Origin: a virus
Virus record (IMG/VR): IMGVR_UViG_3300024518_000712
Location: 1 to 21,822 of that record
DNA: 21,822 nt
Direction: 5' to 3' (one strand)
Part shown: piece after piece, positions 552 to 20,765 of the stretch
How the letters are laid out: every line of letters starts with the position of its first letter
Numbering within the stretch: the first letter of the stretch is position 1
Translations under genes and position numbers: made by a program
The notes under the pieces: model-generated
What the model was told of the DNA's origin: nothing
What the model saw: the letters and a program-made list of their open reading frames with translations, nothing else
The model's database searches: none

Positions 552-836
552 TCAGCCCTCCTCCCGTAGGATGCGGCGATGGGCTTCGAGTCCACCGGAC
601 ATCCCGAGGATGTCGCGGCGGCGCATCGTGATCACTGCGGGGGAGATCCCGCGACCGAACTCTAGGTCGTGGCGTGGATCGGCGGCTATCTCTTGGATCT
701 CGCGTAGGGTCGCCTTGCGCTGGGTCATCAGTGCGAAGACCGTGCTGTAGGTCTCCCACTTGCTGAAGTTCTCAAAGGCGTCGACGATCCGTGAGCGCGT
801 GGCGTCGGTCATCGCGAGCGGGGTGGAGGTGACCAT
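552..836 (-). CDS. hypothetical phage protein, 94 aa
   Basis: Unrecognised small soluble protein, mainly helical in appearance, with a charged C-terminal half. It starts at ATG 836, with GGGAGG about 6 bases upstream. The previous gene ends in TGA two bases before this ATG, and the helicase gene begins 4 bases after its own stop, so the three genes are almost certainly co-transcribed and translationally coupled. A second in-frame ATG at 812 (MTDATRS) is possible but has no comparable ribosome-binding site. No catalytic motif, membrane segment or metal site is visible. Its position before a helicase suggests a replication or recombination role, but nothing in the sequence proves it. Confidence 0.75.
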   Translation of the reverse strand: MVTSTPLAMTDATRSRIVDAFENFSKWETYSTVFALMTQRKATLREIQEIAADPRHDLEFGRGISPAVITMRRRDILGMSGGLEAHRRILREEG

Positions 837-837
837 C

Positions 838-1014
838 TCAGACCTCCCACCGGATGGCGTGATACTCTATCCGGTATGGCGCATCGGCGTCCTGTGCAAA
901 GCGTACCGCTATGTTGGCGGCAGCCGCTTCGGTCTCGAACCGCGCCACGAAGTAGCCATCGTGGAAAAGTTCGTTTCGCCGTGTGATCTCGAAAGTCATT
1001 GCCGTGTCGGTCAT
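838..1014 (-). CDS. small hypothetical protein, first gene of left leftward operon, 58 aa
   Basis: Short acidic-to-neutral protein beginning MTDTAMTFEITRR. The ATG at 1014 has AGGAG about 9 bases upstream. A second in-frame ATG at 1047 would add 11 residues (MDNNLRNRSTE) and would lie at the predicted transcription start, so a leaderless alternative exists. The C-terminal half (HDGYFVARFETEAAAANIAVRFAQDADAPYR, in parts) looks like a small alpha/beta fold, but I recognise no family. The leader and promoter are near copies of those of the other leftward operon, whose first gene also begins MTD. The body of the two proteins is otherwise unrelated by eye. Confidence 0.65.
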   Translation of the reverse strand: MTDTAMTFEITRRNELFHDGYFVARFETEAAAANIAVRFAQDADAPYRIEYHAIRWEV

Positions 1015-1047
1015 CTCGGTGCTCCTGTTGCGAAGGTTGTTGTCCAT
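1015..1047 (-). promoter_or_regulatory. conserved leader / ribosome-binding element, copy 1
   Basis: The stretch between the predicted transcription start and the MTD start codon contains the 17-base block AACCTTCGCAACAGGAG (complement of 1022-1038). This is identical to the leader of the right leftward operon at 20431-20447. The block ends in the Shine-Dalgarno AGGAG. Both leaders also place an in-frame ATG exactly 33 bases before the main ATG. Identity includes wobble positions, which fits an RNA or ribosome-binding element better than conserved coding sequence. Confidence 0.65.
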
Positions 1048-1053
1048 GCAGTG

Positions 1054-1083
1054 AATATGGGGGGACACCTGTCCCCTACGCAA
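1054..1083 (-). promoter_or_regulatory. leftward promoter of helicase operon
   Basis: Minus-strand -35 TTGCGT (1083-1078) and -10 CATATT (1059-1054) are separated by 18 bases. The predicted start is near 1047. The same hexamers occur with 17-base spacing before the other leftward operon at 20490-20462. The spacer is almost entirely filled by a palindrome (1061-1076), so a bound protein would compete directly with RNA polymerase. The hexamers are only moderate matches to sigma-70 consensus; support comes from the duplicated arrangement. Confidence 0.6.
1061..1076. promoter_or_regulatory. palindromic operator, copy 1 (perfect)
   Basis: GGGGACACCTGTCCCC is a perfect 7-2-7 inverted repeat lying between the -35 and -10 of the leftward promoter. 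Related palindromes occur at 20467-20482 and 20504-20519, with an imperfect one at 1172-1187. The shared form is GGGGRCA-NN-YGYCCCC. The position inside a promoter spacer implies repressor binding; the protein is not identified. Confidence 0.65.
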
Positions 1084-1114: not shown

Positions 1115-1144
1115 TTGACCCGTTGGGCGGTGTCGCCGTAAATT
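1115..1144 (+). promoter_or_regulatory. candidate rightward late promoter
   Basis: TTGACC (1115-1120) and TAAATT (1139-1144) are 18 bases apart, the best sigma-70-like pair I see upstream of the capsid gene. A start near 1151 would give a leader of about 170 bases containing an imperfect operator, an intrinsic terminator and a hairpin before the capsid start codon. The -10 match is partial, so the call is tentative. A phage-specific sigma factor would use other sequences. Confidence 0.4.
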
Positions 1145-1237: not shown

Positions 1238-1291
1238 CTGCCCACAGCGTACCACATTCAGTTCTACGTGGTGCTGGGGCAGTTTTTTATT
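1238..1291 (+). terminator. strong intrinsic terminator upstream of the capsid gene
   Basis: A long rightward stem is formed by CTGCCC/GGGCAG, CAGC/GCTG and ACCAC/GTGGT (15 pairs with a 1-base and a 2-base bulge on the left arm). It closes a 12-base loop at 1256-1267 and is followed directly by TTTTTTATT (1283-1291). No plus-strand gene precedes it in the window. It therefore either ends a short leader RNA from a promoter around 1115-1144 or stops read-through from elsewhere. It ends 28 bases before the capsid start codon, so the late genes must be reached by antitermination or read-through. Confidence 0.75.
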
Positions 1292-1314
1292 CCCCCGGCA
1301 CACATAACCGGGGG
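1292..1314 (+). promoter_or_regulatory. hairpin covering the capsid gene ribosome-binding region
   Basis: CCCCCGG (1292-1298) can pair with CCGGGGG (1308-1314) around the 9-base loop CACACATAA. The right arm is the G-rich tract that must serve as the Shine-Dalgarno for the ATG at 1320. Closing this stem should hide the site, which suggests translational control of the capsid gene, or a structure remodelled by a partner. It follows the terminator T-run directly. Confidence 0.5.
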
Positions 1315-1319
1315 GACCA

Positions 1320-17901: not shown

Positions 17902-17910
17902 GGAGTCCGC

Positions 17911-18400: not shown

Positions 18401-18651
18401 GGTGTCCTCCTCTTCAGCGGGTCACGCTCGCGGAAGCCCTGGAGCGTGACGCCATGCTCGTGCGCCACCTCGCGGATCGTCTGTGGCACGAGTTCGTCGG
18501 TGAACGGCGGCTGATACTTCGAGCGCGAGGATGTGCGCTCGACCGTCCCGTCTGACCAGAGCCTCCACGACTTGCGGTAGCGGCCATCTCCGTTGTGTGT
18601 GGCTTTGCCTTTGCTCGACTTTACGAGGATGTGGCCTGTGGGGATCGTCAT
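18397..18651 (-). CDS. hypothetical basic protein, 84 aa
   Basis: Starts at ATG 18651 (MTIPTGHILVKSSKGKATHN), overlapping the preceding stop. A much longer reading from 18960 is the shadow of other genes. Strongly basic, with RYRKSWRLWSDGTVERTSSR resembling a small beta-hairpin unit and a C-terminal helix (DELVPQTIREVAHEHGV). No known family recognised. Nucleic-acid binding is possible from the charge; nothing more can be said. Confidence 0.75.
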   Translation of the reverse strand: MTIPTGHILVKSSKGKATHNGDGRYRKSWRLWSDGTVERTSSRSKYQPPFTDELVPQTIREVAHEHGVTLQGFRERDPLKRRTP

Positions 18652-18848
18652 GCTGTCTCCTTCGGCCACGTCAGTGGCTGGGGGTTCTCTAGGAAGGCCC
18701 GCTGAAGCGGCGGGATAGGCGTGTACGCGCCCTTCCAGCGTCTCAGGGTGCGAGGGTGTACCCTCATCACCTCTTGGGCGAAGCGGGCGTCTGTCAGCTT
18801 CGACTCCTTGATGCGAGCGTGGAGCAGGATCACGTGCTTGTTCTTCAT
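18648..18848 (-). CDS. small helix-turn-helix DNA-binding protein, 66 aa
   Basis: Residues about 18-44 (LTDARFAQEVMRVHPRTLRRW) fit a helix-turn-helix of the XRE/Cro class: a first helix, an alternating turn and the recognition helix PRTLRRW, followed by a basic loop. The protein is little larger than a single HTH domain, like Cro. ATG 18848 has GAGGAG upstream; its stop overlaps the next start. It is the only clear transcription-factor-like gene in the window, so it is the first candidate to bind the palindromic operators. This link is inference. Confidence 0.75.
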   Translation of the reverse strand: MKNKHVILLHARIKESKLTDARFAQEVMRVHPRTLRRWKGAYTPIPPLQRAFLENPQPLTWPKETA

Positions 18849-19210: not shown

Positions 19211-19423
19211 CTATCCCTCCTGTGTGCGAACACGCTTCGGGAGGCGAGGCATCGCAAGCTGGGAGTCACAGTCAATGCAGTAGGCTAGTCCACCCTCCCT
19301 GCTGAGGATCTCTTCGACGGTGACGTAAAGGCTCCCGTCTGGCCCTACGACTTGGGCCTCGGGGCCACAGTCAGGGCAAGTAAGCTCGAAGCAGACTGCT
19401 GTCGCGATCTTGGCGGTCTTCAT
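19211..19423 (-). CDS. small zinc-ribbon protein, 70 aa
   Basis: Starts at ATG 19423 (MKTAKIATAVCFELTC), with AGGAGG about 7 bases upstream, and overlaps the preceding stop. Cys16-Pro-Asp-Cys19 and Cys49-Ile-Asp-Cys52 make a zinc ribbon, with a GSLYVTVEEILSREGG strand-helix between. It has a basic tail (RLPKRVRTQEG). It lies directly before the double zinc-ribbon gene. The frame from 19576 in some readings is not coding. Function unknown. Confidence 0.75.
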   Translation of the reverse strand: MKTAKIATAVCFELTCPDCGPEAQVVGPDGSLYVTVEEILSREGGLAYCIDCDSQLAMPRLPKRVRTQEG

Positions 19424-19818
19424 GGCGTTACCTCCTGCCTCGGAAGGATCACTGCCCAGTTCATCTTGCCACGGCGGGGGCAGTAGCCGTTGTCCTCTAC
19501 GACCTCGCCCCCCTTGACTACCATCGCGTGATGACCCGCCGCGACCATCGCGTCCCTGCCGTCCTCTCTCAGCCACCTCGCCAGAGTTGGGTCATCGGAC
19601 CAGTGATACCAGATGATCTTGGCGTCTGGGATATACTCCCTGACCACGGCCAGCCACGCCCTGTCGTTGCACCAGCCCCGCTTGCCCTTGTTGGAGGGGT
19701 GATGGCGGACCAGATCAGCCGCCTCCTCCTTGGAGACATCTCCGTAGCCCATGAGGGTCAGGACATAGGCCAGCGCGGTCGGCACACAGTACCTCGCCCA
19801 CGTTGCTCGGTCAGCCAT
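19420..19818 (-). CDS. papain/C39-like protein with Cys-His-Asp/Asn motif, 132 aa
   Basis: From ATG 19818 (MADRATWARYCVPTALAYVL). Cys11 is in a Y-C-x-P-T-A-L-A helix start, the usual nucleophile context of C39/papain-like peptidases. GHHAMVV (His96/97) and EDNGY (Asp109/Asn110) can supply the base and third residue in the right order and spacing for a minimal papain-like domain. Between them are helix and linker sections (SKEEAADLVRHH and GWCNDRAWLAVVREY). It lacks a signal peptide, so it probably acts in the cytoplasm, on unknown targets. The start overlaps nothing; TGA of the upstream gene is 1 base away. The active site is inferred. Confidence 0.7.
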   Translation of the reverse strand: MADRATWARYCVPTALAYVLTLMGYGDVSKEEAADLVRHHPSNKGKRGWCNDRAWLAVVREYIPDAKIIWYHWSDDPTLARWLREDGRDAMVAAGHHAMVVKGGEVVEDNGYCPRRGKMNWAVILPRQEVTP

Positions 19819-20192: not shown

Positions 20193-20423
20193 TCAGGCCA
20201 CCTCCCGGTTAAGGATGTGCCTGACGGACTCTTCGAGTTCGTCGATGGAGGCCATGCGGGAGGCGATCCCGCCATGCTTCTCGGCGAGGGCGTTGGCCCG
20301 CTCTTCGGTGATGCCGAAGTGGCGTTGGGACACCCACTCGCCGATCCACTGCCAGTCGGTCGGCTCGGCGGGTGCCATCGCGGCGGCGAGGTTGCCAAAG
20401 TGCTCTAGTACGGCGTCGGTCAT
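20193..20423 (-). CDS. first gene of right leftward operon, 76 aa, unknown
   Basis: MTDAVLEHFGNLAAAMAPAE from ATG 20423, with AGGAG about 9 bases upstream. An upstream in-frame ATG at 20456 would add MTINLRNRSAQ and would start at the predicted transcription start. The protein is helical: WQWIGEWVSQRHFGITEERA, NALAEKHGGIASRM and a final helix DELEESVRHILNREVA. No family recognised; the first position in the operon behind a regulated promoter suggests an early accessory function. Its leader is shared with the other leftward operon. Confidence 0.75.
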   Translation of the reverse strand: MTDAVLEHFGNLAAAMAPAEPTDWQWIGEWVSQRHFGITEERANALAEKHGGIASRMASIDELEESVRHILNREVA

Positions 20424-20456
20424 CTGGGCACTCCTGTTGCGAAGGTTAATTGTCAT
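20424..20456 (-). promoter_or_regulatory. conserved leader / ribosome-binding element, copy 2
   Basis: Contains AACCTTCGCAACAGGAG (complement of 20431-20447), identical over 17 bases to the leader at 1022-1038, and keeps the same 33-base distance between upstream and main ATG. A looser third version is on the plus strand at 20557-20573. Confidence 0.65.
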
Positions 20457-20461
20457 GAACC

Positions 20462-20490
20462 AATATGGGGACAGATGCCCCCACACGCAA
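20462..20490 (-). promoter_or_regulatory. leftward promoter of right small-gene operon
   Basis: -35 TTGCGT (20490-20485), 17-base spacer, -10 CATATT (20467-20462), predicted start near 20455. Same hexamers as at 1083-1054, and again a palindrome fills the spacer. The duplication makes this more convincing than the hexamers alone. Confidence 0.6.
20467..20482. promoter_or_regulatory. palindromic operator, copy 2
   Basis: GGGGACAGATGCCCCC: an inverted repeat with one mismatched pair in the 7-base arms, lying in the promoter spacer exactly as copy 1 does. Confidence 0.6.
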
Positions 20491-20503: not shown

Positions 20504-20519
20504 GGGGGCGTCTGCCCCC
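20504..20519. promoter_or_regulatory. palindromic operator, copy 3
   Basis: GGGGGCGTCTGCCCCC: 6-base arms pair perfectly. Its centre is 37 bases from that of copy 2, upstream of the leftward -35 and on the side facing the rightward operon. It may serve as a second site for co-operative binding or act on a rightward promoter. Confidence 0.5.
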
Positions 20520-20556: not shown

Positions 20557-20573
20557 GACCTTCGACACAGGAG
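20557..20573 (+). promoter_or_regulatory. diverged third copy of the leader element, plus strand
   Basis: GACCTTCGACACAGGAG matches the leader block at 14 of 17 bases, and AGGAG lies 7 bases before an ATG at 20580. A TTGACT at 20548-20553 is close, but I find no good matching -10, so the promoter of the rightward operon is not identified. Confidence 0.45.
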
Positions 20574-20579
20574 TCCAAG

Positions 20580-20765
20580 ATGCAATTCCCGCCAAAGCAC
20601 CATATCCAACACGTCGACACCCTCGTGTCGGTGGCCTCTATGTTGAGGAGCTATGCCGAAAGGTGCTCCCGGCGAGTCACTCCTTCGTCGAAGGCGGCTA
20701 AGGGGGTCACCACACGTTCAACCTTCAAAAGGAGAACCCATGACTACAGAGGAACTGCTGCATAA
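20580..20765 (+). CDS. possible small leader protein, up to 61 aa
   Basis: MQFPPKHHIQHVDTLVSVAS begins at ATG 20580, with AGGAG 7 bases upstream inside a copy of the conserved leader. The first 30 residues look helical and protein-like; the rest is basic and low in complexity. It overlaps the start of the nuclease gene by 26 bases in another frame. A 6-bp hairpin (CGACAC/GTGTCG, 20615-20630) lies within it. It could be a real small protein, a regulatory leader peptide or chance. Together with the control elements, it occupies the 316-base stretch between the divergent genes. Confidence 0.35.
   Translation: MQFPPKHHIQHVDTLVSVASMLRSYAERCSRRVTPSSKAAKGVTTRSTFKRRTHDYRGTAA

Follow-up and report, generated by a model that had tools for sequence, protein, structure and literature searches.

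A promoter, an operator-like palindrome and a short leader that recur together ahead of changing sets of genes probably form a conserved head for exchangeable expression cassettes, early or accessory, of an uncultured family of tailed phages. This module occurs twice in the stretch of DNA analysed here (hereafter the window), a 21.8-kb linear virus record, and seven times in its relatives, which makes nine copies in six viruses. The head appears to combine a sigma70-like promoter, whose two hexamers enclose an operator-like dyad, with a short leader that has a Shine-Dalgarno sequence of its own.

Architecture of the module in the window

Read on the minus strand, copy A is TTGCGT-AGGGGACAGGTGTCCCCC-CATATT-CACTGC-ATG-GACAAC-AACCTTCGCAACAGGAG-CACCGAG-ATGACCGAC and copy B is TTGCGT-GTGGGGGCATCTGTCCC-CATATT-GGTTC-ATG-ACAATT-AACCTTCGCAACAGGAG-TGCCCAG-ATGACCGAC. 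The elements that the initial annotation had listed as shared by the two copies (the -35, the spacer palindrome, CATATT, the upstream ATG, the 17-nt block and ATGACCGAC) all lie where it had placed them.

1083-1012, minus strand: module copy A, whole
1078-1083, minus strand: -35-like hexamer TTGCGT, copy A
1061-1076, minus strand: operator-like palindrome GGGGACAGGTGTCCCC in the promoter spacer of copy A, GGGGACA-GG-TGTCCCC, with perfect 7-bp arms
1054-1059, minus strand: -10-like hexamer CATATT, copy A
1045-1047, minus strand: upstream ATG of copy A, at the predicted transcript start; the main ATG follows 33 nt on, in frame (MDNNLRNRSTEM)
1022-1038, minus strand: 17-nt leader block AACCTTCGCAACAGGAG of copy A, which holds the Shine-Dalgarno sequence AGGAG and whose CUUC can pair with GGAG
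1012-1014, minus strand: main ATG, copy A
20490-20421, minus strand: module copy B, whole
20485-20490, minus strand: -35-like hexamer TTGCGT, copy B
20467-20482, minus strand: operator-like palindrome GGGGGCATCTGTCCCC in the promoter spacer of copy B, GGGGGCA-TC-TGTCCCC
20462-20467, minus strand: -10-like hexamer CATATT, copy B
20454-20456, minus strand: upstream ATG of copy B, at the predicted transcript start and in frame with the main ATG (MTINLRNRSAQM)
20431-20447, minus strand: 17-nt leader block of copy B, identical to that of copy A
20421-20423, minus strand: main ATG, copy B

The identity of the 17-mer between copies A and B is far beyond chance: the exact sequence occurs twice in the window, while shuffles give 0.07 matches even at ≤3 mismatches. 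Likewise, TTGCGT-N16-19-ATATT is found twice in the window against 0.03 expected from shuffles. Copy B is accompanied by further elements of the same kind, one of which differs in the relative G003 (3300031800_000019).

20504-20519, minus strand: second operator-like palindrome GGGGGCAGACGCCCCC, upstream of copy B; its left arm is degenerate in G003
20557-20573, plus strand: weaker third match to the leader block, GACCTTCGACACAGGAG, with 3 mismatches and without the module's promoter
20722-20734, plus strand: CCTTC-AAAA-GGAG leader ahead of the PD-(D/E)XK nuclease gene (ATG 20740), the CTTC/GGAG arrangement without the module's promoter

The open reading frame behind the third leader-block match is doubtful, because its ATG at 20580 reads ATT in G003. 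A small palindrome, CCTTCGTCGAAGG, is also present between the divergent operons, ahead of the nuclease gene (20682-20695, plus strand).

As the window is a single metagenome contig, one repeat misjoined twice during assembly could in principle mimic such a pair. This explanation is refuted by the finding of an identical copy A in an independent fragment of the window's own virus from another metagenome (L005), by the syntenic, diverged counterpart of copy B in G003, and by two further copies in the relative G001 (IMGVR_UViG_3300035199_000056).

Copies of the module in related viruses

The window has no DNA-level relative among isolated phages, and its capsid protein reaches at most ~35% identity to isolates among the matches listed. 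Relatives were drawn solely from metagenome viral contigs, all of which are incomplete, and only three viruses (the window, G001 and G003) have the module at two loci each. Scanning these relatives with the module, as the initial annotation had recommended, gave seven further copies at three loci: two in G001, two diverged ones in G003, the same single copy on two contigs of one virus (L054 and L059), one in L082, and one in L093, in which promoter, upstream ATG and leader are present and the palindrome is absent. The other six carry the full module. The eight palindrome-bearing copies scored 1e-14 to 1e-18 in nhmmer, and the L093 copy was recognised by reading the site. That annotation had named loss of palindrome and leader with retention of the genes as one outcome that would speak against it; the opposite is seen, with the module conserved and the genes behind it changing.

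Scans with the exact 17-mer and IUPAC patterns returned only the few true copies from viral contigs. A palindrome-plus-ATATT scan gave 17 stretches, L036 being the sole new true copy, and a CCCCATATT-uATG-CCTTC scan gave 35 stretches with two new true ones (L054 and L059). The palindrome-plus-ATATT matches in A+T-rich contigs look terminator-like by eye and were discounted. The module had 0 matches in isolated phages and one weak match in plasmids, which we put down to chance; an Rfam search matched nothing, and scans of genome contigs gave no relative and hence no host. On a 41-kb contig not otherwise tied to this phage family, L024:2051-2073 (minus strand) reads TTGACA-T-GGGGGCATATGCCCCC-ACATATT; this palindrome in a promoter spacer resembles that of the module and may be due to chance.

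Insertion sites in the phage genome

The copies occupy three loci. Locus A separates the prohead protease gene from the major capsid gene, and the module there runs antisense to both; locus B is the head of the leftward early operon and adjoins the divergent PD-(D/E)XK nuclease gene; locus C comes after the final gene of that operon. On these incomplete contigs the window has the module at A and B, G001 at A and C, and G003 at B and C, and locus A is also the site used in L054/L059, L082 and, without the palindrome, L093.

17902-17910, no strand: locus C in the window, 9 bp between convergent genes, without a module; G001 and G003 have the module and different genes here
1115-1144, plus strand: divergent sigma70-like promoter TTGACC-N18-TAAATT toward the major capsid gene

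Eight contigs, from about five viruses, have an empty locus A; the gap between protease and capsid genes is ~190-270 nt there and widens to ~600 nt in G001, ~1120 nt in L059 and ~2460 nt in L082 with the cassette in place. In these three viruses the cassette is thus inserted between genes that are adjacent in relatives; in G006 a rightward open reading frame is found there instead. The window's own protease gene would lie beyond the left contig end. The earlier suggestion that the module flanks the whole late operon does not hold, as in relatives the locus A module sits inside the structural cluster, between protease and capsid. On the capsid side, many relatives, with or without the cassette, retain a divergent promoter, TTGAC-N17/18-TANATT, ~200 nt upstream of the capsid gene, so module A forms one arm of a divergent promoter pair.

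The capsid gene leader itself (window 1240-1319, plus strand) contains a terminator-like hairpin followed by a T-run (CTGCCC...GGGGCAG TTTTTT) and a second hairpin, CCCCCGG...CCGGGGG, directly before the ATG; by eye, similar hairpins are present in G001, L059 and L082. Locus A of L094 (5100-6730, minus strand) holds a series of promoter-gene-terminator units whose own promoter repeat is unlike the window's module.

Genes behind the module

838-1014, minus strand: first gene behind copy A, 58 aa, no known family
552-836, minus strand: second gene behind copy A, 94 aa
2-595, minus strand: SNF2-type helicase, cut by the window end
20193-20423, minus strand: first gene behind copy B, 76 aa, no known family

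The coding sequences behind the two window copies are unrelated, as first noticed by eye: both proteins start MTD and then diverge. When the cargo proteins were compared, only two clear related pairs emerged. One is the SNF2-type helicase: the module of L082 is followed directly by a relative with 90% identity. The other is the 94-aa protein, with a 59% identical homologue at locus A of L094, located behind a different promoter within one promoter-gene-terminator unit. The first gene product of copy B gave marginal, chance-level matches only (E 0.006 and 0.012, to the long helicase). Apart from the helicase of the window and L082, the cargo consists mostly of small proteins without known families, one of which matches a PHROG of unknown function. 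A 132-aa protein of operon B (window 19423-19818, minus strand) has a weak, below-cutoff match to Peptidase_C39_2.

The boundaries at which homology ends fall in or next to the head. Between the window and G001, 77% DNA identity extends from 7963 to 1006, across the promoter and the leader, to end after the first nine bases of the gene (ATGACCGAC). Between L059 and either of these viruses, homology stops inside the leader and restarts at the protease gene. At locus B, the window and G003 share 85% DNA identity, which breaks off at the copy B -10. Past the cargo, terminators were found behind G001-A, G001-C and L059-A and are visible in the sequence behind G003-C and L082-A; for the copy A cassette of the window no terminator was found, and its operon continues past the contig end. 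Several cassettes of the relatives have the terminator expected of a moron, and, at the level of sequence, each cassette also has its own promoter, with sigma70-like hexamers 16-18 nt apart. The GC content of the cargo lies within ~1-5 percentage points of the contig, short of the deviant base composition that marks many morons and is not a strict requirement. A head that is conserved in relatives and portable, with separate and changing gene sets behind it, agrees with the initial annotation's proposal of a duplicated or mobile regulatory cassette.

The spacer palindrome and a candidate regulator

The dyad is 5/7 to 7/8 complementary in the eight copies that carry it, at three loci, and its centre switches between ACA-NN-TGT and CATATG forms across copies. 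The same dyad thus lies inside promoters at several loci, the arrangement expected of a repressor-operator regulon, and a shared regulon under a common repressor would account for it. A repressor bound at the spacer dyad, between -35 and -10, would exclude RNA polymerase. One candidate is encoded in the window.

18648-18848, minus strand: 66-aa HTH-like protein in the operon behind module B, candidate regulator of the palindrome; 97% identical in G003

This protein is found downstream of module B in both the window and G003. Its signals are weak (Pfam E 0.075, pLDDT 57); no relative turned up in phages, and none among solved structures scored better than E 1.5. If this HTH-like candidate is the regulator, operon B would be self-controlled.

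In the sequences at hand, module variants track the virus rather than the locus. The window and G001 have one leader type across A, B and C, and the L059-A leader is closer to G003-C (identity 0.85) than to W-A (the window's copy A) and G001-A at its own locus (0.66 and 0.62). Two accounts fit this pattern: the head may move or be homogenised inside one virus, or it may be selected to match a single trans-acting factor; viruses with two copies (n=3) are too few to choose between them.

The same data bear on a simpler account, in which moron-like insertions are headed by an ordinary early promoter and a good ribosome-binding site and the copies are alike by descent, without a common regulator. 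We consider this possible but unlikely. It is consistent with L093, which retains promoter and leader without the palindrome, and with the different promoter repeated ahead of the moron-like units of L094, but it leaves unexplained why dyad symmetry is maintained in eight copies at three loci, why the 17-nt identity reaches beyond the Shine-Dalgarno sequence and why variants follow the virus.

The upstream ATG and the leader

In 9/9 copies, 5-6 nt separate the -10 from the upstream ATG; because this spacing is kept while the six bases that follow the ATG vary, the ATG itself seems to be constrained. The spacing also predicts the transcript start and thereby suggests mRNAs with a 5'-terminal AUG ahead of a Shine-Dalgarno start. 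Messages of this kind can be translated from both starts in E. coli (PMC4965119), and for ptrB, altering the 5' AUG brings downstream expression under 8% (PMC4965119).

The upstream ATG is in frame with the main start, with no stop between them, in 8/9 copies at spacings of 30, 33 or 36 nt; in G003-B it is out of frame, at 35 nt. The in-frame upstream ATG and the palindrome are therefore each not universal, with G003-B and L093 as the exceptions. Three in-frame lengths would suit a conserved block that is coding, namely a mobile N-terminal tag, MxxNLRNRSxxM, fused from the upstream ATG to different proteins. This reading is improbable: the wobble positions of the block are invariant in the four window and G001 copies while flanking codons change amino acids, the inner ATG has a good Shine-Dalgarno sequence, the leaders of G003, L059, L082 and L093 encode different peptides, and G003-B falls out of frame.

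Folding of the leader gives the CUUC/GGAG pairing as one of several options, with GGAG often paired elsewhere, and the stem offers no covariation, its bases being invariant. A CsrA site was considered and dropped, since ACAGGA lacks the A-N-GGA order. GGAG is also where the T4 endoribonuclease RegB acts, and on early mRNAs a phage RNA-binding protein or endoribonuclease could recognise CUUC/GGAG, making the main role of the module post-transcriptional. The leader loop varies while CTTC and GGAG are fixed, as such a target would predict, and CTTC-N3-8-GGAG precedes 4/14 early and 0/22 late starts in the window (p 0.017, which includes the defining copies). However, this falls to 2/12 early starts once the two defining module copies are removed, no RegB-like gene was identified and Rfam returned nothing, so that we regard a mainly post-transcriptional role as quite improbable.

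Proposed mechanism

Based on the above data, we favor a conserved head that serves interchangeable cassettes. Host RNA polymerase would transcribe early from the head, and one dyad-bound regulator would block the promoter at every copy; newly acquired genes would thereby fall under existing control. Cargo would be swapped by recombination between heads, or between the head and conserved neighbouring genes. With less assurance, transcription may start at the A of the upstream ATG, giving an mRNA with a 5'-terminal AUG that would yield an N-terminally extended isoform and/or place a ribosome so as to open the CUUC/GGAG hairpin over the Shine-Dalgarno sequence.

A fuller version is speculative and rather unlikely to hold in every part. 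The head would work at two levels, with a regulator at the spacer dyad acting on DNA and the 5'-terminal, mostly in-frame AUG with its Shine-Dalgarno hairpin acting on translation, the two being matched within each virus. Captured genes would at once enter the early programme, and operator and leader types would mark separate exchange groups.

The head resembles a preformed slot through which accessory genes could be traded. It offers an entry route for small genes of no known family that has a recognisable head, three fixed loci and one phage family, so that accessory-gene capture and early control become directly testable. The head may also serve as a search key for accessory genes, for example anti-defence genes, in uncultured phages.

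Relation to known systems

Lambda operators and mycobacteriophage stoperators place the operators of one repressor at several promoters of one phage, and the module resembles them in having one palindromic site that recurs at several phage promoters. It differs in that the palindrome travels with promoter and leader, and its repressor is a candidate only. The likeness to the E. coli mRNAs with a 5' upstream AUG (PMC4965119) lies in an AUG at the 5' end of the transcript, here predicted, followed by a Shine-Dalgarno-led gene start. In the module, by contrast, the upstream ATG is mostly in frame and conserved in a repeated phage element, with a predicted start.

Morons of lambdoid and P22-like phages are genes that sit in a phage operon as insertions and are expressed independently, having a promoter and a terminator (PMC2629481, PMC1524935). 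The cassettes described here share with them their own promoter and terminator and a variable presence between relatives, but unrelated genes here have one regulatory head in common at several loci, and the base composition of the cargo hardly departs from that of the contig.

In T4-type phages, mobile regulatory cassettes were reportedly described by Arbiol et al. in 2010 (cited in PMC4177764) as promoter early stem-loop (PeSL) elements, said to be repeated early-promoter elements between genes that are thought to promote the shuffling of novel genes while the early programme is kept. The module is similarly repeated (nine copies at three loci) ahead of mostly unrelated cargo, with a putatively early timing. 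Unlike PeSL, it carries an operator-like dyad between the promoter hexamers, ahead of the predicted start, extends through the leader to the start codon, has its terminators at the far end of the cargo rather than a terminator stem-loop within the module, and belongs to an unrelated phage family. Morons and the T4 mobile regulatory cassettes are the closest known kinds; the module is a variant of both, set apart by the operator-like dyad and the conserved upstream ATG of its shared head.
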